Shown here: one piece after another, positions 3,740-38,391 of the stretch | How the letters are laid out: every line of letters starts with the position of its first letter | Position numbering within the stretch: the stretch's first letter is position 1 | NCBI GenBank assembly: GCA_905250025.1 | Contig: CAJNOJ010000173.1 | Span: forward strand, 1 to 64,000 | Reading direction: 5' to 3' | Source: Adineta ricciae | Taxonomy: Eukaryota; Rotifera; Eurotatoria; Adinetida; Adinetidae | DNA length: 64,000 nucleotides | Notes under the pieces: generated by a model | The model's input: only the letters and a program-made list of their open reading frames with translations | Databases searched by the model: none | Told to the model about the DNA's origin: nothing | Made by a program: the position numbers and the translations under genes

Positions 3740-3741
3740 AA

Positions 3742-6769: not shown

Positions 6770-7946
6770 ATGGCATGCTACAGATTCTGTTCACCGTACC
6801 TCTGCACGAGCGCGTGTGATGACTTGGATGCTTACGATCCATGGGATTGTTTTGATACATGCACATCAACTTGTTACATTCAACCACGAGTTTATCGATT
6901 GCGTAGTGCGAAATGTCAACCATCGACCAGTTTGTCGAAAACCCAAGGATGCAATTCAACGAACAGAGGGACAGAATCAGCAGCAGCCGAAGCCAATTCA
7001 GAAAAGTTCTGTGTCCATGTGAATATTCGTGGATTCGATCAGGAATCAGTCAAGATGAAGGTTGAAAATGGCAAACTAATTGTTGAAGCTAATGAAGAAG
7101 ACCGACAAGATGACGAAGAGTATACTATCCGACAATTTAAAAGAACATATCAAATACCTAAACAAGCCGGTAAGTAATAATCGAGAGATAACAATTTTTT
7201 TCTAATTTGCTGATATAGATCCATCATGTATGACTTCCCGAATGGTATCGGATAATATACTTCTAATTGAGGTGCCTTTTACTAAAAGTTCACCGGGTGA
7301 GAACTGTCTGGCACAAGGCGAAGAACAAAGTTTTCAGAACGGAAATTATCTAGGACAAGCTCCAGAGCAAAGCTACCAGAATGGAAACTATTCTGGCCAG
7401 GGTCAAGAACAAAGCAGCGGCTATGGAAATGATCTTCCACAATGTCAAGAGCAAAGCGTTCCAAATGATAACTACACTGGACAAGCTCCGGAACAAAGTT
7501 ATCCAAATAGTAATTATACTGGGCAAGCACCAGAGCAAAGTTATCCGAATAGAAGTTATTCTGGACAAGGTCATGTGCAAAATAGTCAATATGGAAACTT
7601 CCCTCAATCGGAATCACAAGAATCACGTGATTCATTGGCTTCTTATGTTAAACTTTTAATGAGTGCAGATTTTCATCCATGCATTGCTGACCTTGGTGGA
7701 AATAGGAAAGCGTTGCAAATGACAATCGATGTGAAAAACTGTCAACTCGAAGATATGAATGTTTCTATAGAAAACAATGAGTTAGTTGTTCGAGGTCAGT
7801 GTAAACATAAAGAAAATCATCATTCCAAACGAGCACGGTTCTTCCGATCGACAACATTACCAGCTGGAGCACAAACTCAACAGATGACAAAGCAATTGGA
7901 TAAAGATGGTCAATTGAAGATACAAATACCAATTACACTTACATAA
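6770..7946 (+). CDS. Double alpha-crystallin small heat-shock protein with Gln/Asn/Gly/Tyr linker, copy alpha-1
   Basis: Two exons (6770-7169 and 7219-7946) around a 49-bp intron encode 375 aa. Residues 1-60 are Cys-rich (MACYRFCSPYLCTSACDD and onwards). A first alpha-crystallin (Hsp20) domain follows: FCVHVNIRGFDQESVKMKVE, then MTSRMVSDNILLIEVP, which contains the usual end-of-domain pattern. Next come about 80 residues of imperfect repeats built on GQAPEQSYPNSNYT, low in complexity and prion-like. A second, more diverged domain closes the protein (MTIDVKNCQLEDMNVSIE, then ARFFRSTTLPAGA). Small heat-shock proteins hold unfolding proteins in the cytosol without ATP. Two domains in one chain are uncommon and recall other invertebrate double-ACD proteins. 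The Cys-rich head could bind metal or form disulfides; this is inference. Confidence 0.88.
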
Positions 7947-8602
7947 ACCTAACAGAATTTCATAATTGAAACAATGTAGAACAGAAAGATAAATATTCTC
8001 ATTTGTATGTCATAAATTTATAAAAAAAGAATAAATGCAATAAGTATGTGGAGTGTTTAGTTCAAGTTCGTCATTTGAATATGAAGGAATCTTAGAATCA
8101 TGATGAATAACCACAATATCTTTGACGTAAACACGTTGATCACATGAAAATGAATATTCACCATTTCATTTGCCACGCAAACAAATATACCAGAACGATT
8201 TGCATATAATTATATAATAGTCTATAAATACTCTCCGACTTCAAAACAAATCCGAAAGAATTACGTTTTTTTTCATTGCGTCGTAAATAGTTAATTATTT
8301 TGCTATATACCACACACACACGTCAGGTAAATATTTTCAAAACACTCTGACGTCACCCAATGATATGGGGAAATGTAGAAAGCGGTGATGGGATAAAATA
8401 ACAAGCGCATATCTATAATTAATATTCTAATAGTAGTGTCATACATATACCTTCTGCTTGATTGCCAACGTGATTTGAGTGAGTATATATGTACCAATAT
8501 GGTTTGATACGATATACATATACACATCTTCGATACGAAGTAAGAATCAAAATGTACGATGTGCTTTATTTCTATCGTTCTCTTCTCCTTTAGATATTAA
8601 TC
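7947..8602. other. Intergenic, no gene seen
   Basis: AT-rich spacer with a short CA run near 8312-8321. An AG follows a pyrimidine tract shortly before the next start codon and could be a trans-splice or 5'-UTR acceptor. Confidence 0.5.
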
Positions 8603-9339
8603 ATGTTTCACTACGTCGTGTACATTACAATCTCTTTACTTGTATCCAATGGCTATGGTAGATCGATCAGAGCAGCTGTAAAGGAACCAGAACGTTGCTG
8701 TTGGATGAGACAATACAATGCAGATGCTGTAACGCGTATCTACATTCGATCAACTGATGGAAGCGTAGAAGAAACCATCGTGAGATATTCTCTTTTCTAC
8801 AAGTTATTTGATACAGCTAGTTTTTATTCTAATAGGGCTCTAATACGTTATCGTATGATGCAGATCGTGGTTTGATAGGAATCAAAGGTGAAGTGCTAAC
8901 GATGTCAAGCGGAGCTTCATATTCAATGTGGTCTATTCAAAGCTTTAATGACAACCAAACGTATATTATAGATGAAGCTTCAAAATCCTGTTCAGCCGTT
9001 CCATTCTCAGAACAAACAATGAGATGTATACCATGTATGCTATTCATGTTGATATTCTTTCTCATTTTAACTTGCAATTTTCTTTTAGCATGGGCTTCCT
9101 ATGTAAACGAAAGTACAACTGAATTTAATGGAAAGACAATCGTATCTGATACTTGGTTAATTGAAAAAGATGGAGTGTCAGCTTATACAACCGTGAGTCG
9201 CGATGGTCAGTGTATTCCATTGAGAGCACAATTACGTGTACCAGCTGCCCGCATGATTTCGATACAAGAACTTACTCGTTTTGAACCAAACATCAAGGAT
9301 CCAAGTATCATGGATATCCCGATACAGTGTCTTGTTTGA
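8603..9339 (+). CDS. Ependymin-like secreted protein, copy alpha-1
   Basis: Three exons (8603-8779, 8836-9034, 9089-9339) join in frame to about 208 aa. A signal peptide (MFHYVVYITISLLVSNGYG) opens the protein. The body has the ependymin pattern: paired Cys near the start (RCCW), SYDADRGLIGIKGE, a Cys within DEASKSCSAVPF, another within RCIP, a DTW motif and a late Cys (DGQCIPL). Ependymin-related proteins are secreted, bind calcium or hydrophobic ligands and are found in many invertebrates. An apparent membrane segment when the third frame is read straight through is actually the second intron, so the protein should be soluble and extracellular. Start position may be off by two bases. Function here is unknown. 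Confidence 0.68.
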
Positions 9340-10028
9340 ACTTACTTTTTACCTAAGTTTTCTGTTGTTGTTGTCTTCTATATAGATATATAAAAACAAT
9401 TCGTCTGACACCGCATTTTAGCTAACATGTTTGCGACTATTGAAACAAATGAATTTCACAGGATTTCTCTAGAAGAATAAGCACTCGACTATATGTCTAA
9501 AGCTCTGAGACTTTTTCAGTACCCCGACATCCTCGGGCTCGGTGCGTTCCTTTGTTTCACAATTGATTTAGAATAAATCATCTTACACGAATCCGATAAA
9601 AGCTTCTGATATAAGTTACAAAGGCAAATGTTGAAATTCTTAATTTTCTTTACCATTTGAAACCAACATCAGGCTATATCATTAGAGTATTCGCAGTTTG
9701 GAATATAGAACTGAATAAATTCGTTTCGTTTGCTTTTCTCATGTTAAAATCATGCTGCTAACGTACACAATGTTTACAATAACGACCTCGCACTTTTTAG
9801 AGGGGGGGCATGTATAAAAGGGGGAGCCTTAGTGAATGAATAAGTGTTTAAGGAAGAGGGGTGGTGGCAATAGACACCTCCGAAAAGAAGAATGCATGCA
9901 CAAAAGGGGTGCTTTCAGAAGGCGTGGGCTCTCGGTGTATATATGTTTCCATGAATAATGTATTTTACAGAAAGCAGTGTTGTTAGTAAGGATCTATAAT
10001 ATATATAGCTTGCCATTTTCTGGAGACA
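9340..10028. other. NAS upstream region
   Basis: Non-coding spacer between the ependymin-like gene and NAS. It holds a G-rich stretch and a TATA box (separate entry), and an acceptor-like TTTTACAG near 9966-9970 that could receive a spliced leader or end a 5'-UTR intron. Confidence 0.5.
9813..9820 (+). promoter_or_regulatory. TATA box of the NAS gene, copy alpha-1
   Basis: TATAAAAG followed by a GGGGGAG run, 216 bp before the NAS start. The same box with the same G-run occurs before the alpha-2 copy, although the surrounding sequence has drifted, which supports function. Confidence 0.55.
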
Positions 10029-11003
10029 ATGGAACTTATTATGACGAGTAATTCTGTTCGCGAAAAGCTCATCGACTTTAACACAGCTATTTCTAAACTT
10101 AGTCTATTCAATCCTTCTTCCGAAGCAACAAACTTATTCGATGAACTTCTGAAATTTTGTTGCTCGACTGCATTGGACTCATCTATATTTGAACGTATGC
10201 TGGAAACAGATTTGGTTCTTCAAGCAGTATGTGATCAATTGCGCCGTTCACGATCGCAATATGAATATTATCTCGAAAAGAATTTGGCGAAGATATATAC
10301 CACCAATCCTGGCCAAAATTTGATTGAACAATTTTCCGACGATGGTGATTATCATCGATTAATTGAATTTGAGATTAAAATGCTACACGAACTCGGCATT
10401 CAGTTCTCTCAAAGTTCAATACCAAATGATACAAGCAACATTTTGGTAAACAAAATAGCTTTTATTGGTTCAGGTCCTATTCCCATCTCTTCCATACTTA
10501 TTCTTCGTAAGTACGCTCCATTTGCTGATATTTACAACTTTGACATGTCATATGAGGCGAATCAGTTGGCATTAGGAATAACAAAGCAATTATTACCTGG
10601 ACATCTAATCGAAAGAATGCATTTCATTACGCAGGATATTGGTCAGAAGTCGATTCCAATCGAAGTAGAATCAATCCTAAAAGAATGTCAAATCATTTTT
10701 CTCGCAGCACTTGTTGGTCATGATGAAATGACTAAATTAGACATCCTTCGAAATGTCGTGAAGCACTCGAAAAATGAGTCAAATCCGACAAAAGTGCAAC
10801 ATATAGTGATCAGAAGTACTGATGGATTATGCCAAGTTCTATATCCCAAGCTGAGTCCTAAATTAATTATAACACTTGAAGCATCGCCAAGTAACGAAAC
10901 ACGAAGTAACAAGCAAAACATTTCACTGGACATACAAAAAGTTAGTCTTTCGGAAAATGGCTCTGCTATCTCAACGATTATCGCAAAAATGATCAAAAAA
11001 TAA
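10029..11003 (+). CDS. Nicotianamine synthase, copy alpha-1
   Basis: A single exon of 324 aa, the usual length for plant nicotianamine synthases. The Rossmann core is clear: KIAFIGSGPIPISS (142-155) is the SAM-binding loop, NFDMSYEAN (170-178) matches the plant NYDIDHSAN strand, RMHFITQDI follows, and FLAALVG (224-230) is the family signature, ending with IRSTDGLCQVLYP, which parallels the plant RSAHALRAFLYP. Glu115 in YHRLIEFEIKML aligns with the catalytic Glu of the YVKLSKLEF region. The enzyme joins aminocarboxypropyl groups of S-adenosylmethionine into nicotianamine, a chelator of Fe, Zn, Ni and Cu. The gene stands next to a ZIP importer and a ZnT exporter. NAS is known from plants, fungi and archaea, so acquisition by transfer is likely. 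Another opine-type metallophore product cannot be excluded. Confidence 0.88.
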   Translation: MELIMTSNSVREKLIDFNTAISKLSLFNPSSEATNLFDELLKFCCSTALDSSIFERMLETDLVLQAVCDQLRRSRSQYEYYLEKNLAKIYTTNPGQNLIEQFSDDGDYHRLIEFEIKMLHELGIQFSQSSIPNDTSNILVNKIAFIGSGPIPISSILILRKYAPFADIYNFDMSYEANQLALGITKQLLPGHLIERMHFITQDIGQKSIPIEVESILKECQIIFLAALVGHDEMTKLDILRNVVKHSKNESNPTKVQHIVIRSTDGLCQVLYPKLSPKLIITLEASPSNETRSNKQNISLDIQKVSLSENGSAISTIIAKMIKK

Positions 11004-11371
11004 ATCTTTTTTAGTATTCTGTTTTTTGTAACTCATACATTTGTGATAACTTGTGAAATTGTAATATAGTTCTGTCTTTTTCTTTTAGTTTTACTTGCAA
11101 TTGCAGATTGAATCCGATATTCGATAAAGTGTCAGTCTTAGCAATTAGAAAGAGAATATCCGTCAATATAGATTCGAAACGAAACTTATCGCTAGGATAC
11201 ATGACATTGAAAATTCTACCAGTAGTCCTCCTAGGTACTCTTCAAGGACAAGGAGACAACTCAAATCAGTCGCACGAGCAATATATGACAAAGTATTTGT
11301 TTCGAGAAATGATTGTAATGAAGATCATACTGGGTTACACTAAAACGCTAATAGATGAGAAAAAAAAAGAG
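11004..11371. other. Short spacer between convergent NAS and ZIP genes
   Basis: About 370 bp holding the 3' ends of both transcripts. No independent gene is supported: the open frame on the plus strand here overlaps the ZIP gene and has no recognisable features. Confidence 0.5.
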
Positions 11372-12445
11372 TCACTTTGTTGCAAATATAAGAGTGGCAG
11401 TGGCAGCAAAACCGATAAGTATAAAACATGTCTTGATCAGTCGTTGTAATTTTGATATGGACGATGATCCTGCTGGTATTGATGTACTATTGAGCTCATG
11501 AGGTAAGACATCGAAAAATGTTATGTAGAAAAATGTACCACATGCAAAAGCACGAAGACAGTCGTTGACAAGTTTAGTCGAACGATGATTTGGCAAAATT
11601 CCTTGCATACTTAACATAGTTAATATACCTGTAGGTGTTGCAGCAGCAAAAATAACACAGGCGAGATAGGCCGATCGGGTTTTTGATGTGGGTAGCAATT
11701 TAAGACCAACACTAAATGAAATAATTGATTTATGAATCAGTATAGCAAGAGATAGTTGTATAATTGTTTGAGAATCCGTCAATGAACCAATGGCGATACC
11801 TTCAAACACGGAATGAATAACAAGTGACAATATCATAAGTAAATTTCGGGTAATTAGTAGATCGTTTGCATTTCTGGTTGTATCACATTTGGGGCTCATC
11901 AACGACATTTGATGTTCGATAGTCGATGAAGAATTGTTATTATGCATTAGTAAAACTTGTTCATTTTTCTCACCATCTCTTTCGATATGTGTCTTTTCCG
12001 AAACAGTAAGAGAAGGTGTTTCACGAAATATTGGAGTTAAACTTGCTGTTGGTGACCGAATGGACAAAGTGATTTGTTCAATAAAGAGAACAATGAAAAA
12101 GCCACACGTGATAAGTATTTCAGCAATAGGATATTCCTTTGGATTATCATATTTGAACTCGTTTTTCAAAGTTGCATCGATGTGATGGATAACGTCAGGT
12201 AGAAGATCTAATAAGCAAGCAGCAAGGAAAACGCCACCACCAAAACAAGTTACACCGCTGATGAGTATTTTTCTCAGGACAATCTTCGTAGAACGTTGTT
12301 TTGATGACTCAGAGAATGCAAATGTTTTGGATTTATTATGTCGTTTCTTCATCCAAAATGAAATGACAATTGGACACACGGAACAGGTTAGTGTAGTGAG
12401 AAAAAAACTGAGAGCGGTTATTATTTTTACGACAAAAGAATCCAT
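11372..12445 (-). CDS. ZIP-family (SLC39) metal importer, copy alpha-1
   Basis: One exon of 357 aa. It has eight hydrophobic segments and a long polar loop at about 130-195, as in ZIP proteins of the ZIP1/2/3 group. The core metal site is visible: HSVFEGIAIG at 211-220 in the fourth span and HKSIISFSVGL at 238-248 in the fifth. DLLPDVIHH at 80-88 follows the second span. The family moves Zn and sometimes Fe into the cytosol from outside or from organelles. The central loop lacks the His-rich run seen in many relatives. The gene is convergent with NAS, and both are duplicated together in alpha-2. Substrate is inferred from family only. Confidence 0.9.
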   Translation of the reverse strand: MDSFVVKIITALSFFLTTLTCSVCPIVISFWMKKRHNKSKTFAFSESSKQRSTKIVLRKILISGVTCFGGGVFLAACLLDLLPDVIHHIDATLKNEFKYDNPKEYPIAEILITCGFFIVLFIEQITLSIRSPTASLTPIFRETPSLTVSEKTHIERDGEKNEQVLLMHNNNSSSTIEHQMSLMSPKCDTTRNANDLLITRNLLMILSLVIHSVFEGIAIGSLTDSQTIIQLSLAILIHKSIISFSVGLKLLPTSKTRSAYLACVIFAAATPTGILTMLSMQGILPNHRSTKLVNDCLRAFACGTFFYITFFDVLPHELNSTSIPAGSSSISKLQRLIKTCFILIGFAATATLIFATK

Positions 12446-12889
12446 TGTGAAAGGGAAACGAATGAAGATCTGAAATCTTAAAAGGAAAGTGTGTTATTAA
12501 TGAAAGATTCGTTCGAAAGAAATGAAAGCATGAAAAGAGGCCAAACTCACTTCCGTTTGATTATCTATTTGTAACAAAACTTGTACGCGATCTTCTTCGA
12601 AAACAAAAATGTAGTACTGAATATTGGAGTACTTGTCTATTTTATTTATCCTTCACCTCTAGTTGACAATTGCCTTAGAGAGAGAAAGAGAAGAAAGGTA
12701 AATAGAGGCGTATGTTTTGTCTTATCGAACAGCAAAGAAAATTATATATATAGATCATTTTTAGGCCCGTCATGTATAATATTCTAATAGAAATTCCTGT
12801 TAAAATTTATTTTTCCTCGTAGTGTTACATCTATGTCTTAAAGTATCAGTACAAGTACAACACTTCTAGCAGGAGTACCTACACTCGTC

Positions 12890-13390
12890 CTACCTCAGAT
12901 GTTGAAGACATTGTGAGAGATTCACAACTACAAGTGCAAAGCTGAATATTCAAGTTCTTTTTACGACGACGAATAATTCAATAAAGCGAATGAATGAATT
13001 TATGCATCCGTTATATAGATGAGATTAGATTTTATTAGGTGCAGTTTAGTTTCTTAAGGTGTCGTAAGTAGAAAATGTACGCACCCCTGTTATGTATTTT
13101 TGTACGTTACCTCCCCTGTTAAGCTTTAAAGGGGGTGTTGAAATGGTTTTTATGTGATTGAAATATGTCAAGTGCTAATTTCACAGGGAGGGAGAGAAAG
13201 AAAGAAAACGTTGTAGACCAATTGAACGAAAGATTTCGGAGTATTTTTGCTTTGATTGTTCTGGAGCCTGGTGGATATACGGATTGCATTTTTCTAAGTC
13301 ATAGAGAAATAACAAGAAGTGTTTTTGTACAGAATTGGATTGAACTTATTTAACCGACAATATTTCTTGTAGGAAAAATGAGTATATGCA
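12890..13390 (+). repeat. Inverted repeat, distal arm upstream of ZnT alpha-1
   Basis: This arm pairs with 14050-14410 in reverse orientation. The best-matching part is 13070-13215, which includes the CGCACCCCTGTTATGTAT, GTTACCTCCCCTGTTAAG and AGGGGGTGTTGA blocks. Similarity by eye is around 75-80 percent with small indels. Alpha-2 has both arms too. It looks like an old inverted duplication of the ZnT promoter region. Confidence 0.6.
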
Positions 13391-14049
13391 AGTTTTCTAA
13401 AATGAAATGATCACGACAAAGCGAAGGATGTTTTTGTGGTTTTTGAAACTCAAAGTAGACACCGTACCGCATCGATACCGGAGTGATTTTGCTCGTGTAT
13501 TATGTTCTCAAGATGTTAAAGTCCTCCAACAGAATTGATGTCATAGGAGTATATTTTAAATTACAATCCAAGTAATCGAATATCGTAATCAATCAGTAAC
13601 ATGATGTTTAATTAAGAGAAAAGGTCTTGTTTCAGGTGGTGATCATTTTAGCATCCGGCAATAATCTTTTCATTAAGTAAGAAGAAGAAATGAAAGAAAA
13701 AAGTGGGTACACATCACTCATTTTTAAAAGAGTTCGAAGAATTCATCGAAAAATACTTGACCATTTCAAATCCATCTTCTTCAAACAAATGAATAATAAC
13801 TAATAGAAAATCAGTGTGTACCGTTTTTGTCTTTACGTCACATTTTCTGGTCATTTTTTCATTCAGATGTTGAACATTCAATATGATACTGAGACTGATT
13901 ATTCGGAATACAATTATTGAACTTCCGATTTACTATCTTGACGAACACTTGTATAAATCAATCACTCTCTGGTCAAATAACAATACGTATTATCAAATCA
14001 ATACTTAAATTATATCTTCTTTTTCAGGGAAAGCAATCGAATTTATCTG

Positions 14050-14410
14050 ACCCATTTATGATTCCTACAAAATAACACTGAATGACTTATATTCGCCAGA
14101 ACTTACGATAATGAGAGCGAGAATCATATGAAAACTTATTTCGAAGTAGCTCGACAACGTTTTCTTTCTTCCTCCCCCTGCGAAATTAACGCTTGACATA
14201 TTGCAATCATATAAAACCTATCTCAACACCCCCTTGAAAGTTTCACAGGGGAGGTAACATACAAATATACATAACAGGGGTGCGCACATGTTTGCTGACG
14301 TCATTGTACACAGTATATTACATCCAATACCCAACAATATATATAAACTACATATAAATTCATCATTGTAAAGGAAAACTTAAATAATCACCTATTGCAG
14401 TTATAATAGT
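14050..14410 (-). repeat. Inverted repeat, proximal arm upstream of ZnT alpha-1
   Basis: Partner of the distal arm. It ends a few bases before the ZnT start and therefore lies in the likely promoter. It contains the TCAACACCCCCTTGAAAG, AGGGGAGGTAAC and ACAGGGGTGCGCAC blocks. Confidence 0.6.
14281..14287 (+). promoter_or_regulatory. Metal-response-element-like core upstream of ZnT alpha-1
   Basis: TGCGCAC fits the MTF-1 core TGCRCNC and lies about 140 bp before the ZnT start. It reads as a core on the other strand as well. One core of seven bases can occur by chance; its weight comes from similar cores before the other ZnT copies. Confidence 0.35.
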
Positions 14411-14422
14411 GAATCCCTTTGA

Positions 14423-15275
14423 ATGTCGTTATCAACTCAAAAGGATACTCGATTCTATTCAACCAAGACATTTCGTCTGGTATCGATGATGATATTGACA
14501 TTTTCATATTTCGTCGTCGAACTTGTTGTCGGTAACATCACCAATTCATTAGCACTGGTAGCCGATGCTTTCCACATGCTCTCTGATCTGATAGCTCTTG
14601 CAATCGGATTAATAGTTGTGCGGATAGCTAAAAGACGTTCTAATATCAACACATTCGGATGGGTACGTGCTGAAGTCGTTGGTGCCAATATCAACTCTGT
14701 CTTCTTGTTAGCTCTTTGTTTAACAATTATTTTTGACACTATCAAACGGTACATTCAACCGGAACCTATCGAGAATCCTACTCTTCTTCTCATTGTTGGA
14801 TCGGTGGGTCTAGGAATTAATATCATTGGTCTGTTTCTATTTCAAGGCTTTCATGGTCATTCACATGGTGGTAGTAGTGACGCTGATGAGCCGCATGGTC
14901 ACAGTCATCATACGCCTCACGAATCAAAGTTACGGAAACAATCCAATAGAACTTCGGAAACCAACCCGAATACCGCTACGTCAAAAATTGATGAAAACAT
15001 CGAACCAATTGAAGTCGTTGTCACTTCCTCTGACTTCAGAAGACACAGCCTTCGAGCTCTCGACGAGGTAACACTCCTGCGTCTTTCTCATCATCTCATA
15101 ACCATTCCTATCTCCTCTAGGTTATTGTCGACTGCATTTATCATCCTCCTTCACCATCATCGCCACAGATCCATTCTCCGACACACGTCAACAAAAAAGA
15201 AAAAAAGTCATCCATGAATATGCACGGCGTGTTCCTCCATGTCCTAGCTGATGCTCTCGGCTCAGTCGCCGTCAT
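14423..15275 (+). CDS. CDF/ZnT zinc exporter, copy alpha-1, cut by an assembly join
   Basis: Exon 1 is 14423-15067 and exon 2 starts at 15121, with a 53-bp intron; the frame ends at the N at 15276. Zinc-binding HMLSD (51-55) in span 2 and HVLAD in span 5 give the HD/HD site of zinc-specific CDF proteins. A His-rich loop (GHSHGG, HGHSHH) lies between spans 4 and 5. By resemblance to ZnT1/ZnT10, the protein exports cytosolic Zn, or possibly Mn, across the plasma membrane or into vesicles. The missing part should include span 6 and the cytosolic ferredoxin-like domain seen in the beta copies. The loop is of the short type, shared with beta-2, while the intron matches beta-1 exactly by eye. Confidence 0.88.
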
Positions 15276-15276: not shown

Positions 15277-15945
15277 GTTTTGTAGACCGATAAAAAACGC
15301 ATCAATTTCGTTCCGTGTCTTCTACAAGCAGGATACGAACCTTCTGGTTATTTGGGTCTTGTCATTCGTGATCGACTATATATTGATTTTACTGCACCAG
15401 GTAGTTTTGATGCAAGTTTCGAAGAATTGATGGCTGAAATTCATACTATTGAAAAGCAAACACAAGCTTCTCCCAGTAAATAAATCCATTGATTTTCATA
15501 GTAAAATTCATACGTATTTATTATTCTGCTTTCAGCATGCAGCATGAAAACATTCCAAACAACTTGCTCAAGACCTTCATCTACAGGCGTATCTACCAAT
15601 GGGCAAATTTCGCATGAATCTCTTCGAATAGTTATACGTGAATTCAAAGAGTCAATTAATCAGATCTACAATGATGCACAACCGATAACAGAAGAAGAGT
15701 TTCCTCAATTTGTTGATTATATACGTCAACATGTCTTCTCTAATGAATTTCAATCATCGTCAACAGGACACAATAATTCACAACAAATACTACGAGAAAT
15801 TTTGCTACATTCACGAACTCAAACCGAATGTCTTCGACGAATCACTGAGATTCTTTCGAACCTCACCGAAACTAGAACAGTTATTAAATTATCCCTAGCA
15901 GTTGTATTACTATATACGATCAATAAATTTTTTCAACATAGATGA
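15277..15945 (+). CDS. TIR-domain protein, copy alpha-2, 5' part missing at a join
   Basis: Only the last two exons are present (to 15475, and 15536-15945). They match the alpha-1 gene almost throughout, including the conserved intron and the C-terminal hydrophobic anchor. The first bases after the N carry a few differences from alpha-1, including an in-frame stop close to the contig end, which may be sequencing error at the edge. Relative to alpha-1 the bulk of the TIR domain lies in missing sequence. It is convergent with FkbM alpha-2, as in alpha-1. Confidence 0.75.
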
Positions 15946-15947
15946 AA

Positions 15948-16940
15948 TCACGTTTTTGTAAACCATAATTCTATTTGTTCACCATTACTTAATCTTCGTA
16001 GATCGTCATCAGATTTGTGAGTCGGTACTGATTGCCATGCTTTTTGCTCATATAAACTTGCTAATTGATCGGTAACGATTCGAATGCTATACCCGCGAGA
16101 GGCGAAGAATTTCAAGTATTCGTATGGATCACTTTGCTTCTCTCGCATCATTCGAGGACTGAATTCCGATATGACGTGACGAACTGTATATTCATCGAAC
16201 AAACGAATGCCACTTTGTACTGCATATAATTCTGATCCTTCAACATCGATTTTCATCACATCGATATTCTGATTAACTAGAGTATCAAGTCGTGTACTAT
16301 TAATAACTTGTCTGAGTGAATAACCTCCAGGTATACGTCTACTGGCCTCTTCCTCGGATGTGATGTCACATATCGTATGCCCATCACCGACATTACGATT
16401 ATCACTGTAGAGTATACACAAGCTCGGTTTGACACCAAGACCATTGGGATGTACGATAACATTTTGTGACACTTGCGATGCGTGTACGGATGCTTGCAGT
16501 AGCTTAACATTATTCTGCATGGGTTCTATAGCGATAACTTTGTGGCCAAGTGTTGCCATGACTAGAGTAAACCAACCAATGTTAGCACCAATGTCTAAGA
16601 AAGCAGCTGATTTTGATGGAGTATCAGCCAGAATAGATGCAATTAATCTAGTTTGATGTGGCATCCATGAATGAGACATAGCGATTGAATTCGAAACGAT
16701 ATCCTCTGACAGTAAATGTATACAGAAAGAACGTGAACTAAGAAATGATATTCTCATCGCTCTCTCATCTTTTGGACAAGCAGGACTTTGTGTACTACTG
16801 GGAATAGGCGCCGATATCCACGTCGTAGCTGGTTGTGTAGTTCGTTGTACATAGATAATCCCAACGGTTAATGAAATTAGTAACAGAGCTATGAACGAGA
16901 TCCATCGGCGAATTGAACGAGAAAAAAACTGCTTCATCAA
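15948..16940 (-). CDS. FkbM-family methyltransferase, copy alpha-2
   Basis: An intronless 330-aa frame with the same motifs as alpha-1 (FLDIGANIGWF, AIEP, MKIDVEGSE) and the same N-terminal membrane span. About ten residues differ between the two, mostly in the membrane and stem region, so the catalytic domain is under constraint in both. There is no longer upstream frame here, which supports the MMKQFF start for both copies. Confidence 0.88.
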   Translation of the reverse strand: MMKQFFSRSIRRWISFIALLLISLTVGIIYVQRTTQPATTWISAPIPSSTQSPACPKDERAMRISFLSSRSFCIHLLSEDIVSNSIAMSHSWMPHQTRLIASILADTPSKSAAFLDIGANIGWFTLVMATLGHKVIAIEPMQNNVKLLQASVHASQVSQNVIVHPNGLGVKPSLCILYSDNRNVGDGHTICDITSEEEASRRIPGGYSLRQVINSTRLDTLVNQNIDVMKIDVEGSELYAVQSGIRLFDEYTVRHVISEFSPRMMREKQSDPYEYLKFFASRGYSIRIVTDQLASLYEQKAWQSVPTHKSDDDLRRLSNGEQIELWFTKT

Positions 16941-18934
16941 TGAATAACGCTTTCAAAAAAGATTGAAAATTGTTTCAGAGTACACATATTTCAACGTAAA
17001 GAAATGAAAGAGAAAGAAAAAAGCTTCTTATCTTTATAATAAAAGCTGTTCTTTAGCTATGGTAGCAGCAACTGATAATATTTATAAAACTCAAGAACAA
17101 AAAAAAATGCTTGTGGAAGAAGAGAAAGTGGTTCTGTCATTTTAAGTGACTAAAATAATATTTGATAACGGGGAGCATGATATAAATCATACTTGCAATG
17201 CTTCAATTACAGGAAGCAAATAAAACGTTGACACATGCGAGTTTTTAACCATAGAAACTTTCTAACGGAGTATACAGAAGGAAACAAATACGAACTGTTA
17301 AAACATAGCTGTATACAATGCGAACATCTATTTCATTAACGTCTCAATTACGCAGTAGCGACATTCGAGTTCATATATTCCCTTCTCGAAGTGATTTGAA
17401 CTATTTGATAAACATTTTTCTGAAATTAAAATCAATGTGTTTGACCTTCATTGTTTATCTTGTTGATATGATTGAAGGTTTTTTCTTCATCGAAATCAAA
17501 TATTGTATAACGAGTAAAAACTGGAGTAATTATCATCTAAATTTCATTTTCTCATCAAGTGTCAGCTTATCAAAAGTGAAACCTTTCTGTAGTTGCTGAT
17601 GAGCTGAAAAATAATCAACCTATTTTATAATCGCTATTGAAACAAGAACGACTAGTTTAAAGTTGACAACGCTTTGTAATTTTCGTGAGTTGCTTGCTGA
17701 TACAAACTTAAAGTGGTAGACAGCATATGAATGATTAGAAAATGAGTTAGACGATGGTTCACTCAAGACAGATTTCTATTTTACTCTAATCAGATATTGG
17801 ATTTGTACTGACTGTGGAAGTACACGTCGTACATTATTAACACGGTTATCGGAAATAGCAATATCGACGGTTGTAGGACTTCCTTCGAATCGGCTGCTGA
17901 TTGTTAATAATATATCAAGTGGATTACGAAGAATGGAACAGTCGAACAACTAATAATAGCATCTATTATGCCAATCATCACATACTTGTTATAGTATATT
18001 GGTAATTCATGAATCAAATTGATTAAACAACTTCTTGAGATGGAATTCGTAATTTGTCTATTTCAGTTTTGTGGATTTTCTTAAACCGATGGTCCATCCT
18101 TGTTCTTACTCGAAATTTCAGAATACTCAGCAAGTTAGAGAAATGTACACATTGCATAATATGGTTTTCGATCGACAAATAACCATGCGTTTGTCATTAC
18201 ATTCGCATTGCATCTTTTTCGATGTGTCTACGCTTGCAATGTGTGATTCAAATAGAGCAATTGGGAAAATTCATTACGGTGTAAAATTATTGATAAACAT
18301 CTTGATTGATTTGTTTTCTCTACCTTTCCGTTATACTATAAAAAAACACACGAAAACAAGCCTAATCTTACACTACTTCCAGTATTATTGTCGACAATAG
18401 ATCAATAAGTATTATAAGCTCACTAAACTACACCGTGAATACCTTCTGGATGAATCGTTTTGGTGTTAATAACGTCAGTTTCTTGACTGTAGGCATATCC
18501 TCCATATTGAAATTCAAAACTTTTTGTTCTCGGGATGAAAAGGAAATGGCCGATTGAGATTATGTTTAAAAAAGCGCAGTCCGGCAAACAAGTAATTGGG
18601 TTCATAGCGTAATGGTACGGCTCCTAGAAATTATGTCCGAAATGCATATCCAACTCCGATCATTGGTGTTCAAGAACTGTTTTCGAACTGAAATATTTTT
18701 AATTATTTCGAAATGTAGTTAATGAGAAATTGTTTTTTTTAACATCGATAGAGAAAAAACAAAGAACAGAAAACACACAACCTCATAACCAAGCGTAACA
18801 ATTAATGATGTAACAAACGAAAAGTTACACTTCATTACTTTTCAATATGTATCGTCGTACGTTTGTACGTGCGCTCTGGTCTAAACACGATAATATATAT
18901 TTCAACAGTTATCGTCAAATAACTTACTTTTCAA
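16941..18934. other. Intergenic region matching 4735-6769
   Basis: About 2 kb of non-coding sequence that aligns along its length with alpha-1 but has several indels of 10-60 bp. It contains a clearer version of the minus-strand codon-like stretches, listed separately as a possible decayed gene. Confidence 0.5.
17400..18605 (-). pseudogene. Possible decayed or many-exon gene of unknown function
   Basis: Several minus-strand stretches read like coding sequence but no long frame joins them. From about 17950 to 17785: LFDCSILRNPLDILLTIS, then RFEGSPTTVDIAISDNRV, running on for about 55 open codons. Near 18030-18110: MDHRFKKIHKTEIDKLRIP. From 18605: MNPITCLPDCAFLNIISIGH and onwards for 60 codons. 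In alpha-1 the same pieces have amino-acid changes and two deletions. I do not recognise the protein. A gene with very short exons is possible, but decay is the simpler reading. Confidence 0.3.
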
Positions 18935-20114
18935 ATGGCATGCTACAGATTCTGTTCACCCTACCTTTGCACAAGCGCGTGTGATGACTCGGATGCTTAT
19001 GAACCATGGGATTGTTTTGATACATGCACATCAACTTGTTACATTCAACCACGAGTTTATCGATTGTGTAGTGCGAAGTGTCAACCATCGATCAGTTTGT
19101 CGAAAACGCAAGGATGCAATTCAACGAACGGAGGAACAGAATCAGCAGCAGCCGAAGCCAATTCAGAAAAGTTCTGTGTCCATGTGAATATTCGTGGATT
19201 CGATCAGGAATCAGTCAAGATGAAGGTTGAAAATGGCAAACTAATTGTTGAAGCTAATCAAGAAGACCGACAAGATGACGAAGAGTATACTATCCGACAA
19301 TTTAAAAGAACATATCAAATACCTAAACAAGCTGGTAAGTAATAATTGAGAAATATCAATTCTTTTTTTCTAATTTGCTGATATAGATCCATCACGTCTG
19401 ACTTCTCGAATGGTATCGGATAATATACTTCTAATTGAGGCGCCTTTTACTAAAAGTTCGCCGGGTGAGAATTGTCTGACACAAGGTGAAGAACAAAGTT
19501 TTCAAAACGGAAATTATCTAGGACAAGCTCCAGAGCAAAGCTACCAAAATAGAAACTATTCTGGTCAGGGTCAAGAACAAAGCAGCGGCTATGGAAATGA
19601 TCTTCCACAATGTCAGGAGCACAGCGTTCCAAATGATAACTACACTGGACAAGCCCCGGAGCAAAGTTATCCAAATAGTAATTATACTGGGCAAGCACCA
19701 GAGCAAAGTTATCCGAACAGAAGTTATTCTGGACAAGGTCACATGCAAAATAGTCAATATGGAAACTTCCCTCAATCGGAATCGCAAGAATCACGTGATT
19801 CATTGGCTTCTTATGTTAAACTTTTGATAAGTGCAGATTTTCATCCATGCATTGCTGACCTTGGTGGCAATAGGAAAGCGTTGCAAATGACAATCGATGT
19901 GAAAAACTGTCAACTCGAAGATATGAATGTTTCTATAGAAAACAATGAGTTAGTTGTTCGAGGTCAGTGTAAACATAAAGAAAATCATCATTCCAAACGA
20001 GCACGGTTCTTCCGATCGACAACATTACCAGCTGGAGCACAAACTCAACAGATGACAAAGCAATTGGATAAAGATGGTCAATTAAAGATACAAATACCAA
20101 TTGCACTTACATAA
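18935..20114 (+). CDS. Double alpha-crystallin small heat-shock protein, copy alpha-2
   Basis: Two exons (18935-19334 and 19387-20114), with exon lengths identical to alpha-1, encode 375 aa. The Cys-rich head, first alpha-crystallin domain, Gln/Asn/Gly/Tyr repeat linker and second domain are all present. Several repeat units differ by one residue between copies while the unit number is the same. Both copies keep an open frame with mostly mild changes, which argues that both are used. Confidence 0.88.
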
Positions 20115-22191: not shown

Positions 22192-23166
22192 ATGGAACTT
22201 ATTGCGACGAGTAATTCTATTCGCGAAACGCTCATCGACTATAACAAAGCAATTTCTCAACTTAGTCTATTCAATCCTTCTTCCGAAGCAACAAAATTAT
22301 TCGATGAACTTCTGAAATTTTGTTGCTCGACTGCATTGGACCCATCTATATTTGAACGTATGCTAGAAACAGATTTGGTTCTTCAAGCAGTATGTGATCA
22401 ATTGCGCCGTTCACGATCACAATATGAATATTATCTCGAACAGAACTTGGCAAAGATATATACGACCAATCCTGGCCTAAATTTGATTGAACAGTTTTCC
22501 GACGATGGTGATTATCATCGATTAATTGAATTTGAGATTAACATGCTACACGAACTCGGCATTCGGTTCTCTCAAAGTTCAATACCGAATGATACAAGCA
22601 ACATTTTGGTAAACAAAATAGCTTTTATTGGTTCAGGTCCTATTCCCATCTCTTCCATACTTATTCTTCGTAAGTACGCTCCATTTGCTGATATTTACAA
22701 CATTGACGTGTCACATGAGGCGAATCAGTTGGCATTAAGCATAACTAAGCAATTATTACCTGGACATCTAATCGAAAGAATGCATTTCATTACGCAGGAT
22801 ATTGGTCAGAAGTCGATTCCAATCGAAGTAGAATCAATCCTGAAAGAATGTGAAATCATTTTTCTCGCAGCACTTGTTGGTCATGATGAAATGACTAAAT
22901 TAGACATCCTTCGAAATGTTGTGAAGCACTCGAAAAATGAATCAAATCTGACAAAAGTGCAGCATATAGTGATCAGAAGTACTGATGGATTATGCCAAGT
23001 TCTATATCCTAAGTTGAGCCCTGAACTAATTATAACACTCGAAGCATCGTCAAGTAATGAAACACGAAATAATAAGCAAAACATTTCACTGGACATACGA
23101 AAAGTTAGTCTTTCGGAAAATGGCTCTGCGATCTCAACTATTATCGCAAAAATGATCAAAAAATAA
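22192..23166 (+). CDS. Nicotianamine synthase, copy alpha-2
   Basis: A 324-aa single exon. The start at MELIATSNS is chosen because alpha-1 begins at the same codon; the frame is open further upstream only in this copy. All family signatures are kept: AFIGSGPIPISS, the Asp of NIDVSHEAN, RMHFITQDI, FLAALVG and the Glu equivalent to 115. About 20-25 residues differ from alpha-1, mainly in the first 60 residues, with the catalytic core nearly unchanged. This pattern indicates selection for enzyme activity on both copies. The neighbours ZIP (convergent) and ependymin-like (upstream) are as in alpha-1. Confidence 0.88.
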   Translation: MELIATSNSIRETLIDYNKAISQLSLFNPSSEATKLFDELLKFCCSTALDPSIFERMLETDLVLQAVCDQLRRSRSQYEYYLEQNLAKIYTTNPGLNLIEQFSDDGDYHRLIEFEINMLHELGIRFSQSSIPNDTSNILVNKIAFIGSGPIPISSILILRKYAPFADIYNIDVSHEANQLALSITKQLLPGHLIERMHFITQDIGQKSIPIEVESILKECEIIFLAALVGHDEMTKLDILRNVVKHSKNESNLTKVQHIVIRSTDGLCQVLYPKLSPELIITLEASSSNETRNNKQNISLDIRKVSLSENGSAISTIIAKMIKK

Positions 23167-23534: not shown

Positions 23535-24608
23535 TCACTTTGTTGCAAATATAAGAGCGGCAGTGACAGCGAAACCAATAAATATAAAACATGTCTTGAT
23601 CAGTCGTTGTAGTTTCGATATGGGCGATGGTCCTGCTGGTATTGATGTACTATTGAGTTCATGGGGTAAAACATCGAAAAATGTTATGTAGAAAAAAGTA
23701 CCACATGCAAAAGCACGAAGACAGTCATTGACAAGTTTAGTCGAACGATGATTTGGCAAAATTCCTTGCATACTTAGCATAGTTAATATACCTGTAGGCG
23801 TTGCAGCAGCAAAAATAACACAGGCGAGATAGGCCGATTGATTCTTTGATGTAGGTATCAATTTAAGACCAACACTAAATGAAATAATTGATTTATGAAT
23901 AAGTATAGCAAGAGATAATTGTATAATTGTTTGAGAATCAGTCAATGAACCAATGGCGATACCTTCAAATACTGAATGAATAACAAGTGACAATATCATA
24001 AGCAAATTTCGGGTAATAAGTAGATCATTTGCATTCCTGGTTGTATCACATTTGGGGTTCATCAATGACATTTGATGTTCGATAGTTGATGAAGAATTGT
24101 TACTAAGCATTAGTAAAACTTGTTCATTTTTCTCACCATCTCTTTCGACATGTGCCATTTCCGAAACATTAGGAGAAGATGTTTCACGAAATATCGGAGT
24201 TAAACTTGCTGTTGGTGACCGAATGGACAAAGTGATTTGTTCGATAAAGAGAACAATGAAAAAGCCAGAAGTGATAAGTATTTCAGCAATAGGATATTCC
24301 TTCGGATTATCATATTTGAACTCGTTTTTCAAAGTTGTATTGATGTGATGGATAACGTCGGGTAGAAGATCTAATAAGCAAGCAGCAAGGAAAACCCCGC
24401 CACCAAAACAAGTTACACTACTGATGAGTATTTTTCTTAAGATAGTCTTCGTAGAACGTTGTTTTGATGACTCAGAGAATGCAACTGTTTTGAATTTATT
24501 ATGTTGTTTCTTCATCCAAAATGAAATGACAATTGGACATATGGAACAGGTTAATGTAATAAGAAAAAAATTGAGAGCGGTTATTATTTTTACGACAAAA
24601 GAATCCAT
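23535..24608 (-). CDS. ZIP-family (SLC39) metal importer, copy alpha-2
   Basis: A single exon of 357 aa, colinear with alpha-1. The metal-site segments HSVFEGIAIG and HKSIISFSVGL are unchanged, and differences cluster in the N-terminus and in the polar loop between spans 3 and 4. It is convergent with NAS as in alpha-1. Upstream, a Tc5-like end begins at 24867, so its promoter region is interrupted in this copy. Confidence 0.9.
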   Translation of the reverse strand: MDSFVVKIITALNFFLITLTCSICPIVISFWMKKQHNKFKTVAFSESSKQRSTKTILRKILISSVTCFGGGVFLAACLLDLLPDVIHHINTTLKNEFKYDNPKEYPIAEILITSGFFIVLFIEQITLSIRSPTASLTPIFRETSSPNVSEMAHVERDGEKNEQVLLMLSNNSSSTIEHQMSLMNPKCDTTRNANDLLITRNLLMILSLVIHSVFEGIAIGSLTDSQTIIQLSLAILIHKSIISFSVGLKLIPTSKNQSAYLACVIFAAATPTGILTMLSMQGILPNHRSTKLVNDCLRAFACGTFFYITFFDVLPHELNSTSIPAGPSPISKLQRLIKTCFIFIGFAVTAALIFATK

Positions 24609-24866: not shown

Positions 24867-25078
24867 CGAGGGAACATATTTAGGTGATTAAGCGATTTAG
24901 ATCCCATCTTTTGGTGATAGATAGACCTCAATGAGGTATGAAAAACCTCAAGAGGATTCGTGCCCTCGCGCCTTTATTTCAAAGATACTGAGTTCTCAGG
25001 ATGTATACGAAAAGAGACTGAAATGAAGGATGATCGTTTTTATAGAACAGTAGAGTTTTCAGGTGAAAACTTTTTTCA
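24867..25078 (+). mobile_element. End of a Tc5-like DNA transposon (212 bp), cut at a join
   Basis: Matches the first 212 bp of the full element at 43925, starting CGAGGGAACATATTTAGG, and is preceded by TTA. The sequence stops at the N at 25079. The flank matches alpha-1 near 12660, where the transposon is absent, so this marks one edge of an insertion specific to alpha-2. Confidence 0.85.
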
Positions 25079-25079: not shown

Positions 25080-25863
25080 ATGCAGTCGACAATAACCTAG
25101 AGGAGATAGGAATGATTATGCAATGATGAGAAAAGTGTAGGAGTGTTACCTCGTCGAGAGCTCGAAGGCTGTGTCTTCTGAAGTCAGAGGAAGTGACAAC
25201 GACTTCAAGTGGTTCGATGTTTTCATCAGATATTGACGGTGTAATATCGTGCGTGTTCTTTCCGATCGAAGTTACTGTTTTTGCTTGTTCTGTCGGCGAT
25301 TTGTCATCTACATGATGGCTTAGTGCACGCTTCGTTTTATGTTTGTGACTATGACCATGATCACGTTCTGTGCTCTTATGGCTATGACCATGTGCCTCAT
25401 GAACATCGCTACCACCACCATGTGAATGACCATGAAAACCTTGGAATAGAAACAGACCAATGATATTAATTCCAAGACCCACCGATCCAACAATGAGGAG
25501 TAGAGTAGGATTCTCGATAGATTCCGGTTGAATGTACCGTTTGATAGTATCAAAAATAATTGTTAAACAAAGAGCCAACAAGAAGACAGAGTTGATATTG
25601 GCACCAACGACTTCAGCACGTACCCATCCGAATGTGTTAATATCAGAACGTCTTTTAGCTATCCGCACAACTATTAATCCGATTGCAAGAGCTATTAGAT
25701 CAGATAGCATGTGGAAAGCATCGGCTACCAATGCTAATGAATTGGTAATGTTGCCGACAACAAGTTCGACGACGAAATATGAAAATGTCAATGTCATCAT
25801 CGATACCAGCCGAAATGTCTTGGTTGAATAGAATCGAGTATTCTTGTGAGCTGATGACGGCAT
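25080..25863 (-). CDS. CDF/ZnT zinc exporter, copy alpha-2, cut by an assembly join
   Basis: Exon 1 is 25150-25863 (238 aa), a 53-bp intron follows, and only 17 bp of exon 2 remain before the N. The HMLSD zinc site and a long His-rich loop are present (HGHSHK, DHGHSHKHKTK, SHHVDD). The N-terminus (SYFVVELVVGN) is of the alpha type, the loop is of the long type shared with beta-1, and the intron matches beta-2 exactly by eye. Gene orientation is opposite to alpha-1 because the whole 25080-27790 segment is reversed. Confidence 0.85.
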
Positions 25864-27574: not shown

Positions 27575-27790
27575 CGAGGGAACATATTTAGGTGATTAAG
27601 CGATTTAGATCCCATCTTTTGGTGATAGATAGACCTCAATGAGGTATGAAAAACCTCAAGAGGATTCGTGCCCTCGCGCCTTTATTTCAAAGATACTGAG
27701 TTCTCAGGATGTATACGAAAAGAGACTGAAATGAAGGATGATCGTTTTTATAGAACAGTAGAGTTTTCAGGTGAAAACTTTTTTCAGTTT
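27575..27790 (+). mobile_element. Second end of the alpha-2 Tc5-like transposon (216 bp), cut at a join
   Basis: The same terminal sequence as at 24867, preceded by TAA, and cut at the N at 27791. Its flank (TTCTCTTTCTCTC), read in reverse, matches the right side of the empty site in alpha-1. With the piece at 24867 it gives both edges of one insertion with a TTA target duplication. Confidence 0.85.
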
Positions 27791-27830: not shown

Positions 27831-29464
27831 TCACACTGCTTCAGTTCCCATTAATCGATCATTTTCTTCTTGTTCACAAAACAATGGTTCATTCTCCGTT
27901 TTGCTATATGTTGCACTTGGGCTATTTGCGTCTACGCGTGTTGGATTCATATTAACCACGCTATATACCGCATTACTACGTATTGAATCTTTCGTGCAAC
28001 ATGTTTTCATTTCACAAACTTCATCAGAACAACTCAGTAAACAACTCGCTTTCATTTCTCCATCAACTTCATTCTTCCCCACCAATCTGTCACGTTCTTC
28101 ATCATTCCAGTACTCATACTGAATCGTGGTCGAGTGAATACCGGCATCATGAAAGAATCGTTTTACTTTGTCAGCCACAGTCATATAGTCTGAGAATGAG
28201 CGACGATGTAGATGAGCAGTGGCAACAATTGCATTACTAGTCAATCGCCATACATGTAAATCATGAATCCCATCCACTTCCGACACCTTTTCTAGTAATT
28301 GTTTCTTGAGCGTCGATACTTGCAGATCTTTGGGAACAGTTTGAAGAAGAACATGGGTTGTTTCTTTCAGTAGTGGAATAGCAGAGACAGTGATGATGAT
28401 AACAATGATGACAGACAAGGTCGGATCGACATAGACTGTCCAATGTTTGTTATTGTCTGGATCGTGAGGTACAAACTTGATGATGAGAGAACTGATGATG
28501 ACGGCGACTGAGCCGAGAGCATCAGCTAGGACATGGAGGAACACGCCGTGCATATTCATGGATGACTTTTTTTCTTTTTTGTTGACGTGTGTCGGAGAAT
28601 GGATCTGTGGGGATGATGGTGAAGGAGGATGATAAATGCAGTCGACAATAACCTAGAGGAGATAGGAATGGTTATGAGATGATGAGAAAGACGCAGGAGT
28701 GTTACCTCGTTGAGAGCTCGAAGGCTGTGTCTTCTGAAGTCAGAAGAAGTAACAACGACTTCGAGTGGTTCGATGTTTTCATCAGATATCGACGGTGTAA
28801 TATCGTGTGTGTTCTCTCTGATCGAAGTTACTGTTTTTGGTTGTTCTGTCTGCGATTTGTCATCTACGTGATGGCTTTGTGCACGCTTCGTTTTATGTTT
28901 GTGACTATGACCATGATCACGTGCTGTGCTGTTATGGCTGTGACCATGTGCCTCATCAGCGTCACTACTACCACCATGTGAATGACCATGAAAGCCTTGG
29001 AATAGAAACAGACCAATAATATTAATTCCAAGACCCACCGATCCAACAATGAGGAGAAGAGTAGGATTCTCGATAGGTTCTGGTTGAATGTACCGTTTGA
29101 TGGCATCAAAGATGATCGTTAAACAAAGAGCCAGCAAGAAGACAGTGTTGATATTGGCACCAACGACTTCAGCACGTACCCATCCGAATGTGTTAATATC
29201 AGAACGTCTTTTAGCTATCCGCACAGCAAATAAACCGATGAAAAGTGAGATGACATCGGAAAGCATGTGGAAAGCATCGGCTACCAGTGCTAATGAATTG
29301 GTGATGTTACCAACAATAAGTTCGATGAAAAAAAAGGAGAATGTGAGTGAAAGCATAGTCAGGAGACGAAATGTCTTGGTTGAATAACATCGAGTAGAAT
29401 TATGGTGTGTTGGTGTGGCTGCTGATGAACTATGAGTGGCATGCTCATTAGATTTTGCTCTCAT
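27831..29464 (-). CDS. CDF/ZnT zinc exporter, copy beta-1 (complete)
   Basis: Exons 28706-29464 and 27831-28652 with a 53-bp intron encode 526 aa, long for the family because of the His loop and C-tail. HMLSD in span 2 and HVLAD in span 5 form the zinc site. The long loop carries GHSHGG, HGHSHN, DHGHSHKHK and SHHVDD. A cytosolic C-terminal domain follows (VDGIHDLHVWRLTSNAIVAT is its core strand region), then a Cys-rich tail with SCLLSCSDEVCEMKTCC. The architecture is ZnT1/ZnT10-like zinc efflux. It lies head-to-head with the beta-1 small heat-shock gene across 1.8 kb. An acceptor-like TTTCAG sits 14 bases before the ATG. Confidence 0.92.
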
Positions 29465-36726: not shown

Positions 36727-36826
36727 NNNNNNNNNNNNNNNNNNNNNNNNNNNNNNNNNNNNNNNNNNNNNNNNNNNNNNNNNNNNNNNNNNNNNNNNNN
36801 NNNNNNNNNNNNNNNNNNNNNNNNNN
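36727..36826. other. Assembly gap (100 N)
   Basis: A run of 100 N between the LTR element and the stop codon of ZnT beta-2; its true size is unknown. Confidence 0.95.
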
Positions 36827-38391
36827 TCACACTGTTTCAGCTTCCATTAATCGATCTTTTTCTTCTTGTTCACAACACAACGGTTCATTCTCCATTCTGA
36901 TATATGTTGCACTTGGACTATTTGCGTCTACGCGCGTTTGATTCATATTAACCACGCTATATACCGCATTGCTACGTATTGAATCTTTCGTGCAACATGT
37001 TTTCGTTTCACAAACTTCATCAGGACAACTCAGTAAGCAACTCGCTTTCATTTCTTCACCATTTTCATTCTTCTTCATCAATCTATCATGTTCTTCATCA
37101 TTCCAGTACTCATATTGAATCGTGGTCGAGTGAATACCGGCATCATGAAAGAATCGCTTGACTTTGTCAGCCACAGTCATATAGTCTGAGAATGAGCGAC
37201 GATGTAGATGAGCAGTGGCAACAATCGCATTACTAGTCAATCGCCATACATGTAAATCATGAATACCATCCACTTCGGACACATTCTCTAGTAATTGTTT
37301 CTTGAGCGTTGATACTTGTAGCTCTTTGGGAACAGTTTGAAGAAGAACATGGGTTGTTTCTTTCAGTAGTGGAATAGCGGAGACAGTGATGATGATAACA
37401 ATGATGACAGATAAGGTTGGATCGACATAGACTGTCCAATGTTTGGTGTCGTCGGGATTGTGAGGTACGAACTTGATGATGAGCGAACTGATGATGACGG
37501 CGACTGAGCCGAGAGCATCGGCTAGGACATGGAGAAACACACCATGCATATTCATGGAAGACTTTTTTGCTTTTTTGTTGGGTTGTGTTGGAGAATGGGT
37601 CTGTGTGGATGATGGTGAAGGAGGATGAGAAATGCAGTCGACAATAACCTAGAGGAGATAGGAATGATTATGCAATGATGAGAAAAGTGTAGGAGTGTTA
37701 CCTCGTCGAGAGCTCGAAGGCTGTGTCTTCTGAAGTCAGAGGAAGTGACAACAGCTTCGACAGGTTCGAAGTTGTCATCACTTTTTGACATATGGGTATT
37801 TGTATTGGTTTCCGAAGTTCTATTGGATTGTTTTCGTAGCTTTGATTTGTGAGGCGTATGATGACTGTGTCCATGTGCCTCATGAACATCGCTACCACCA
37901 CCATGTGAATGACCATGAAAACCTTGGAATAGAAACAGGCCAATGATATTAATTCCAAGACCCACCGATCCAACAATGAGGAGTAGAGTAGGATTCTCGA
38001 TAGGTTCTGGTTGAATATATCGTTTGATGGCATCAAAGATGATCGTTAAACAAAGAGCCAGCAAGAAGACAGTGTTGATATTGGCACCAACGACTTCAGC
38101 ACGTACCCATCCGTAGGTGTTAATATCGGAACGTCTTTTGGCTATCCGTACAGCAAATAAACCGATGAAAAGTGAGACGACATCGGAAAGCATGTGGAAA
38201 GCATCGGCTACCAATGCTAATGAATTGGTAATGTTGCCAACAATAAGTTCGATGAAAAAAAAGGAAAATGTGAGTGAAAGCATAGTCAAGAGACGAAATG
38301 TCTTGGTGGAATAACATCGAGTAGAATTATGGTGTGTTGGTGTGGCGGCTGATGAACTATGAGTGACATGCTCATTAGATTTTCCTCTCAT
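36827..38391 (-). CDS. CDF/ZnT zinc exporter, copy beta-2 (complete)
   Basis: Exons 37702-38391 and 36827-37648 encode 503 aa; the stop codon is the first triplet after the gap. It shares with beta-1 the N-terminus (FFFIELIVGN), HMLSD and HVLAD sites, C-terminal domain and Cys-rich tail (SCLLSCPDEVCETKTCC). Its His loop is of the short type (HGHSHHTPHKSKLRKQS), as in alpha-1, and its intron is the same as in alpha-2. It lies head-to-head with the beta-2 heat-shock gene. Confidence 0.92.

Follow-up and report, generated by a model that had tools for sequence, protein, structure and literature searches.

A diverged nicotianamine synthase gene beside ZIP and ZnT zinc transporter genes in a rotifer-like animal genome

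The 64-kb stretch of DNA analysed here (the window) carries a gene for a nicotianamine synthase (NAS) next to genes for a ZIP (SLC39-type) zinc importer and a ZnT exporter (Table 1). A reading made from the letters alone, referred to below as the sequence-only reading, had described a 324-aa NAS frame with family signatures, convergent with a ZIP gene and with a ZnT gene 2 kb beyond. The NAS frame scored 117.9 bits (copy 1) and 120 bits (copy 2) against a Pfam cut-off of 27.1, and PF03059 was the sole Pfam family matched by either copy at E<=0.01. ZIP copy 1 is indeed convergent with NAS copy 1, with 368 bp separating their stop codons. The placement of ZnT held in part: the start of ZnT alpha copy 1 lies ~2 kb from the ZIP start and ~3.4 kb from NAS, and the gene is incomplete, since exon 2, which follows a 53-nt GT-AG intron (15068-15120), is cut by the contig end at the N at position 15276. 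ZnT alpha copy 2 is likewise cut by a contig end, at the N at position 25079. Using tblastn, we found NAS and ZIP genes in the window as two pairs only; the window holds four ZnT genes, so ZnT forms a small local family.

Table 1. Features of the NAS-ZIP-ZnT region, in window coordinates
Feature	Position	Strand	Remarks
NAS copy 1	10029..11003	+	single open frame, 324 aa; PF03059 E 6.6e-34; catalytic residues kept
NAS copy 2, probable allele	22192..23166	+	324 aa, 93% identical; PF03059 E 1.5e-34 (match from 22195)
TATA-like box GTATAAAAGGGGGAG	9812..9826	+	217 bp before NAS copy 1 ATG
ZIP (SLC39-type) zinc importer, copy 1	11372..12445	-	357 aa, single open frame; PF02535 E 5.9e-50
ZIP copy 2	23535..24608	-	PF02535 E 5.8e-49
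ZnT alpha copy 1	14423..15275	+	exon 1 14423-15067; PF01545 E 4.9e-28 (14423-15214)
ZnT alpha copy 2	25080..25863	-	contig C, inverted; intron 25097-25149; PF01545 E 1.5e-29 (24982-25902)
ZnT beta copy 1	27831..29464	-	complete, 526 aa; intron 28653-28705
ZnT beta copy 2	36827..38391	-	complete, 503 aa; intron 37649-37701
CTTAG insertion site, empty in copy 1	12674..12678		in copy 2, filled by Tc5-type element
Probable non-autonomous mobile element between ZIP and ZnT	13072..14293		86% inverted repeat
Left end of Tc5-type element	24867..25078		closes contig B; preceded by TTA target duplicate (24864-24866)
Other end of same Tc5-type insertion	27575..27790		end of contig C; TTA duplicate 27572-27574 (as TAA)
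Single N, join of contigs A and B	15276		A ends in ZnT; B starts in TIR-domain gene, matching 3071 onward
Single N, join of contigs B and C	25079		Tc5-type end meets ZnT
Single N, join of contigs C and D	27791		Tc5-type end meets 3' end of ZnT gene
100-N gap, contigs D and E	36727..36826

For comparison, we used the Arabidopsis enzyme NAS1 (AtNAS1), with the anchor positions of its sequence checked against PMC10248798. In the alignment, E73, E77, and Y106 of AtNAS1 correspond to E79, E83, and Y108 of the window NAS, and a FLAALVG stretch is the same in both proteins, which belong to one Pfam family and share the VGxD pattern. K275 of AtNAS1, which we take to be its conserved lysine, aligns with K304 of the window NAS. 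Each of the three anchor residues is needed for AtNAS1 activity, and deleting the last 46 residues of that enzyme takes away the conserved lysine together with activity (PMC10248798). Both glutamates and the tyrosine are also present in 13 of 13 actinobacterial sequences and in one haloarchaeal NAS-family sequence, so these residues support catalysis and do not prove the product. The window NAS departs from AtNAS1 in residing in an animal host, in carrying a histidine for M208 (VGHD in place of the VGMD motif), and in having no counterpart of the AtNAS1 autoinhibitory stretch 287-298. At the alignable position of the OsNAS2 dileucine motif, placed by eye, the window NAS has Met-Leu instead; this site also varies among the actinobacterial sequences, and the dileucine requirement is reported for rice NAS2 only.

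The two NAS copies, each preceded by an identical TATA-like box (the second at 21939-21953), differ at 46 bases, with an amino-acid change in 22 codons. This is fewer than the mean of 32.6 changes obtained when the differences were placed at random (p = 0.0002, 10,000 draws), and the ratio of nonsynonymous to synonymous substitution rates (dN/dS) for the pair is 0.28. NAS is therefore kept by purifying selection, and the gene is probably functional. The corresponding ratios were 0.23 for ZIP, 0.14-0.38 for four other frame pairs, 0.29 for ZnT beta, and 0.55 for ZnT alpha. An ependymin-like frame lies upstream of NAS in both copies (8836-9336 and 20971-21471), the first matching at E 3.5e-6, below the Pfam cut-off.

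The transporter genes resemble known zinc transporters. One ZnT beta protein was tested against PDB, and its best match was SLC30A1 (E 8.4e-79, 268.7 bits), followed by SLC30A10 (E 9.5e-76, 258.6 bits); ZnT beta combines a cation efflux domain with a dimerisation domain, as in the SLC30A1/A10 type, and contig ends truncate both alpha copies. A PDB search with ZIP gave no match, and its assignment to SLC39 rests on PF02535. These transporters are ordinary host genes; the unusual point is that they have NAS as a neighbour.

An ERO1 gene on contig E scored 311 bits against ERO1-alpha compared to 145 bits against shorter ERO1 entries, which we take to be human and yeast proteins, respectively. Together with the SLC30A1/A10-type ZnT, this match supports an animal-like host genome, in agreement with the sequence-only reading. 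Window GC content (36.5%) and the 2.3-6.3% divergence between the two copies of six genes fit the values given for the bdelloid Adineta ricciae (35.6% and a median between homologues of 4.55%; PMC5916493), and the species assignment was drawn from these two measures. No match above the gathering thresholds of Rfam was found in the window, nor were telomere-like and spliced-leader strings. The core observation is an intact, selected, and strongly diverged NAS next to zinc transporters in an animal-like genome.

We compared the window NAS with AtNAS1, 13 actinobacterial NAS sequences, and a NAS-family protein of Halocatena marina. Identity to AtNAS1 was 26% over aligned columns (28% by blastp); identity to the actinobacterial sequences was 19-23%, whereas AtNAS1 shares 28-36% with the same sequences. 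In FastTree trees the window NAS grouped with AtNAS1 and apart from the actinobacterial sequences (support 0.972 and 0.955); its branch measured 2.4-2.5 substitutions per site. Since no fungal, moss, or whitefly sequence was in the trees, they exclude only a recent transfer from the sampled lineages.

The cited papers report NAS from plants, fungi, bacteria, and archaea. They add the whitefly Bemisia tabaci, which, according to a 2025 survey, took its NAS gene from a plant and is so far the sole metazoan known to have one (PMC12454661). From this distribution in the literature, horizontal transfer is the likely origin of the window NAS, as the sequence-only reading had proposed. In part of its sampling, the survey applied a Blastp limit of e-30. 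A one-sequence comparison of AtNAS1 with the window NAS gave E 8e-25, so a limit of that kind might have missed the window NAS. The whitefly gene, compared here by its description only, is likewise a NAS gene integrated in an animal genome and differs in its angiosperm origin. Because the window NAS is far from plant NAS (26% identity), it would be a second NAS case in animals, independent of the whitefly one. In the first screen of four bdelloids, candidate transferred genes made up 11.7-14.5% (PMC5916493). Among open-licence PMC papers, supplements excluded, we found none linking nicotianamine or nicotianamine synthase with rotifers or bdelloids, and none on bdelloid horizontal transfer with a metal chelator.

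Building on the gene identity, residues, linkage, and selection described above, we favour as probable a reading in which a nicotianamine synthase reached an animal by an old horizontal transfer. The recipient would most likely be a bdelloid rotifer, either Adineta ricciae itself or a species close to it, in which the enzyme would serve metal buffering beside ZIP and ZnT and the gene would be present in two homologous chromosome copies. What we infer in this reading is the identity of the host, the product, the transfer and its donor, and the cooperation of the three genes. The enzyme would couple three aminobutyrate units derived from S-adenosylmethionine (SAM), yielding nicotianamine or a closely related compound, a small intracellular chelator of Zn, Fe, Cu, and Ni; reported log K values of nicotianamine complexes are 14.7 for zinc, 18.6 for copper, and 20.6 for ferric iron (PMC10341464). 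With NAS in an animal chromosome, convergent with the importer and close to an SLC30A1/A10-type exporter, ZIP would import zinc, nicotianamine would keep it non-toxic, and ZnT would export the excess. Judging from gene identity and position, importer, chelator, and exporter make a plausible, coherent zinc buffer.

Several observations weigh against this reading. We searched for the metal response element motif TGCRCNC, and in neither copy was it found upstream of NAS or in the stretch that separates NAS from ZIP. The ZnT pairs are more diverged than the A. ricciae median, with differences in coding sequence of 12.6% for ZnT alpha (contigs A and C) and 9.4% for ZnT beta (contigs D and E), and contigs D and E are 86-92% identical over all DNA. 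E73, being present in all 13 actinobacterial sequences and the haloarchaeal one, is not specific to nicotianamine makers. Activity or product could be changed by the VGHD for VGMD replacement and by Met-Leu at the dileucine position, and the very long branch makes a changed function possible. Two plant NAS proteins are reported to lack detectable activity (PMC10248798).

It is a quite realistic possibility that the neighbourhood is a matter of chance, with NAS having landed beside zinc transporters and working alone. One locus was examined, the ZnT beta genes occur without NAS, and a mobile element lies between ZIP and ZnT, with inverted ends of ~145 bp (13072-13217 and 14151-14293) and similar inverted pieces in contig C. 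The lack of metal response elements upstream of NAS fits a chance arrangement as well. Between ZIP and ZnT, two overlapping TGCRCNC sites were found in copy 1 and three in contig C (1.0 and 1.6 per kb, respectively, versus 0.53 in the whole window), and these sites lie in or beside the ends of mobile elements. However, the linkage is kept in both copies, and in Arabidopsis the zinc sensors bZIP19 and bZIP23 have ZIP as well as NAS genes among their targets (PMC10341464). The sequence-only reading had also taken the conserved gene order in a duplication as an argument for a cluster; this argument falls if the copies are alleles.

That the enzyme has diverged from NAS to form an aminobutyrate-coupled metallophore other than nicotianamine, or to serve some other role, seems to us unlikely. 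Such a shift would agree with the low identity to AtNAS1 and to the 13 actinobacterial sequences, with the very long branch and the VGHD motif, and with the description of NAS-like enzymes that use other starter molecules (PMC10248798). On the other hand, the window NAS retains E73, E77, Y106, the conserved lysine, and a FLAALVG stretch identical to that of AtNAS1. The actinobacterial sequences and the H. marina protein share the family and the Glu, Glu, and Tyr residues with it; the 13 actinobacterial ones differ from it in identity and in tree position. An AlphaFold model of NAS with the two alleles as input was poor (mean predicted local distance difference test score, pLDDT, 41.4), and PDB sequence searches with NAS found no NAS entry, the matches being limited to four weak pentatricopeptide ones.

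A bolder reading, which we judge less likely than not, is that bdelloids gained nicotianamine synthesis independently, from a microbe or fungus, and built it into a chromosomal importer-chelator-exporter cluster for zinc that may curb metal-driven oxidative damage in desiccation. If true, this would be the first animal nicotianamine synthase of non-plant origin. If a rotifer-like animal has a divergent NAS under selection, the chelator pathway must have entered animals more than once. Such a gene would also tie horizontal transfer to metal or stress tolerance in a way open to testing.

The two copies of the region have to be read together with the assembly, in which contigs A (1-15275), B (15277-25078), and C (25080-27790) are followed by D and E. 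Unrelated sequences abut at each of the three single Ns. Contig B is collinear with contig A from ~3071 to 12680 (about 9.6 kb), whereas contig C aligns to contig A in reverse. When reversed, contig C begins with the right Tc5-type end, and the ends of contigs B and C both carry the TTA duplicate; the best explanation is therefore that contig C is placed backwards in the window. This also best explains why the second ZnT has the opposite orientation in the window as given. With contig C reversed, A + D and B + C + E would be two versions of one region, each with the order NAS, ZIP, ZnT alpha, then ZnT beta and HSP20 beta. The name Tc5-type rests on Pfam matches of a copy with both ends at ~43921-46681, a DNA transposon whose inverted ends are 358 bp long and whose two open frames match HTH_Tnp_Tc5 and Transp_Tc5_C with DDE_1, respectively.

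Given the joins at single Ns, the inversion of contig C, and the divergence of the six gene pairs near the A. ricciae median, the two copies are most likely homologous chromosome copies that scaffolding has interleaved, one contig having been put in backwards. Of the duplication that the sequence-only reading had described as keeping gene order, the order of NAS, ZIP, and ZnT stands in both copies, and homologous copies are likelier than the duplication itself. A true tandem duplication of the NAS-ZIP-ZnT block, which we judge improbable, would account for the same order on one scaffold and for the excess divergence of the ZnT pairs, and two tandem homologous blocks have been noted in the A. 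ricciae assembly (PMC5916493). However, the single-N joins at 15276 and 25079 cut ZnT, contig C needs flipping to fit the Tc5-type insertion, the six other gene pairs diverge like homologous copies, and many collinearity breaks in that assembly span scaffold gaps (PMC5916493). The case illustrates how scaffolding that interleaves homologous chromosome copies can mimic a gene duplication.

No sequenced junction joins the alpha and beta blocks, and the ZnT intron and His-rich loop point opposite ways as to how these blocks pair. The four ZnT copies are mosaics, with the intron identical in contigs A and D and in C and E, and the His-rich loop pairing A with E and C with D. Such a pattern may stem from gene conversion or from phase switching during assembly.

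Contamination, with NAS coming from a food organism (plant, fungus, or bacterium), which a single open frame rarely reported in animals might bring to mind, is very improbable: contig A, without any N, joins NAS to the zinc transporters and to genes with GT-AG introns (ZnT, from a spliced model, and HSP20, by eye), contig B is collinear over ~9.6 kb, the GC content of NAS (36%; 0.32 at third codon positions versus 0.25-0.35 in six other frames) is neighbour-like, and NAS is far from the plant and bacterial NAS compared.

Relatives of NAS were also sought in other sequence sets. A family search of 396 genomes from the phylum of an Occultella genome, which we take to be actinobacterial, gave NAS above the cut-off in four. 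Two orders yielded it in 1/30 and 13/198 genomes, each repeating one match from the 396-genome set, and two further sets in none of 247 genomes (one below cut-off) and none of 299 (four below cut-off). In a control set, one of 14 genomes had a NAS family match, Methanosarcina acetivorans. Among 17 loci (L006-L022), 15 frames matched the NAS profile and L008 and L009 gave none; 13 frames were aligned and used for the trees, and L021 and L022, both fragments from a single genome, were left out. Scans of viral contigs (6 and 60 stretches) and genome contigs (66 stretches) found no relative, and a plasmid scan with the window NAS found no match, with scan patterns that were mostly not conserved motifs. 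Five genome-contig loci from a degenerate DNA pattern scan were rejected, NAS being found in none of those five genomes. A plasmid search with one actinobacterial NAS returned two records, both Halocatena, one of which was used.

Other features of the window include a piece of a glycosyl hydrolase family 28 gene (33933-34337; PF00295, E 4.2e-6), another candidate transferred gene, and a Gypsy-like retroelement frame, named by eye, at 34619-36826 that runs into the 100-N gap. A TIR-domain gene lies at 2873-3274 (PF13676, E 8.4e-11), and contig B opens with the second copy of this gene, at 15277. An FkbM-type methyltransferase pair (3745-4821 and 15951-16952, with PF05050 matched by the second) is 97.7% identical and less diverged than its neighbours.

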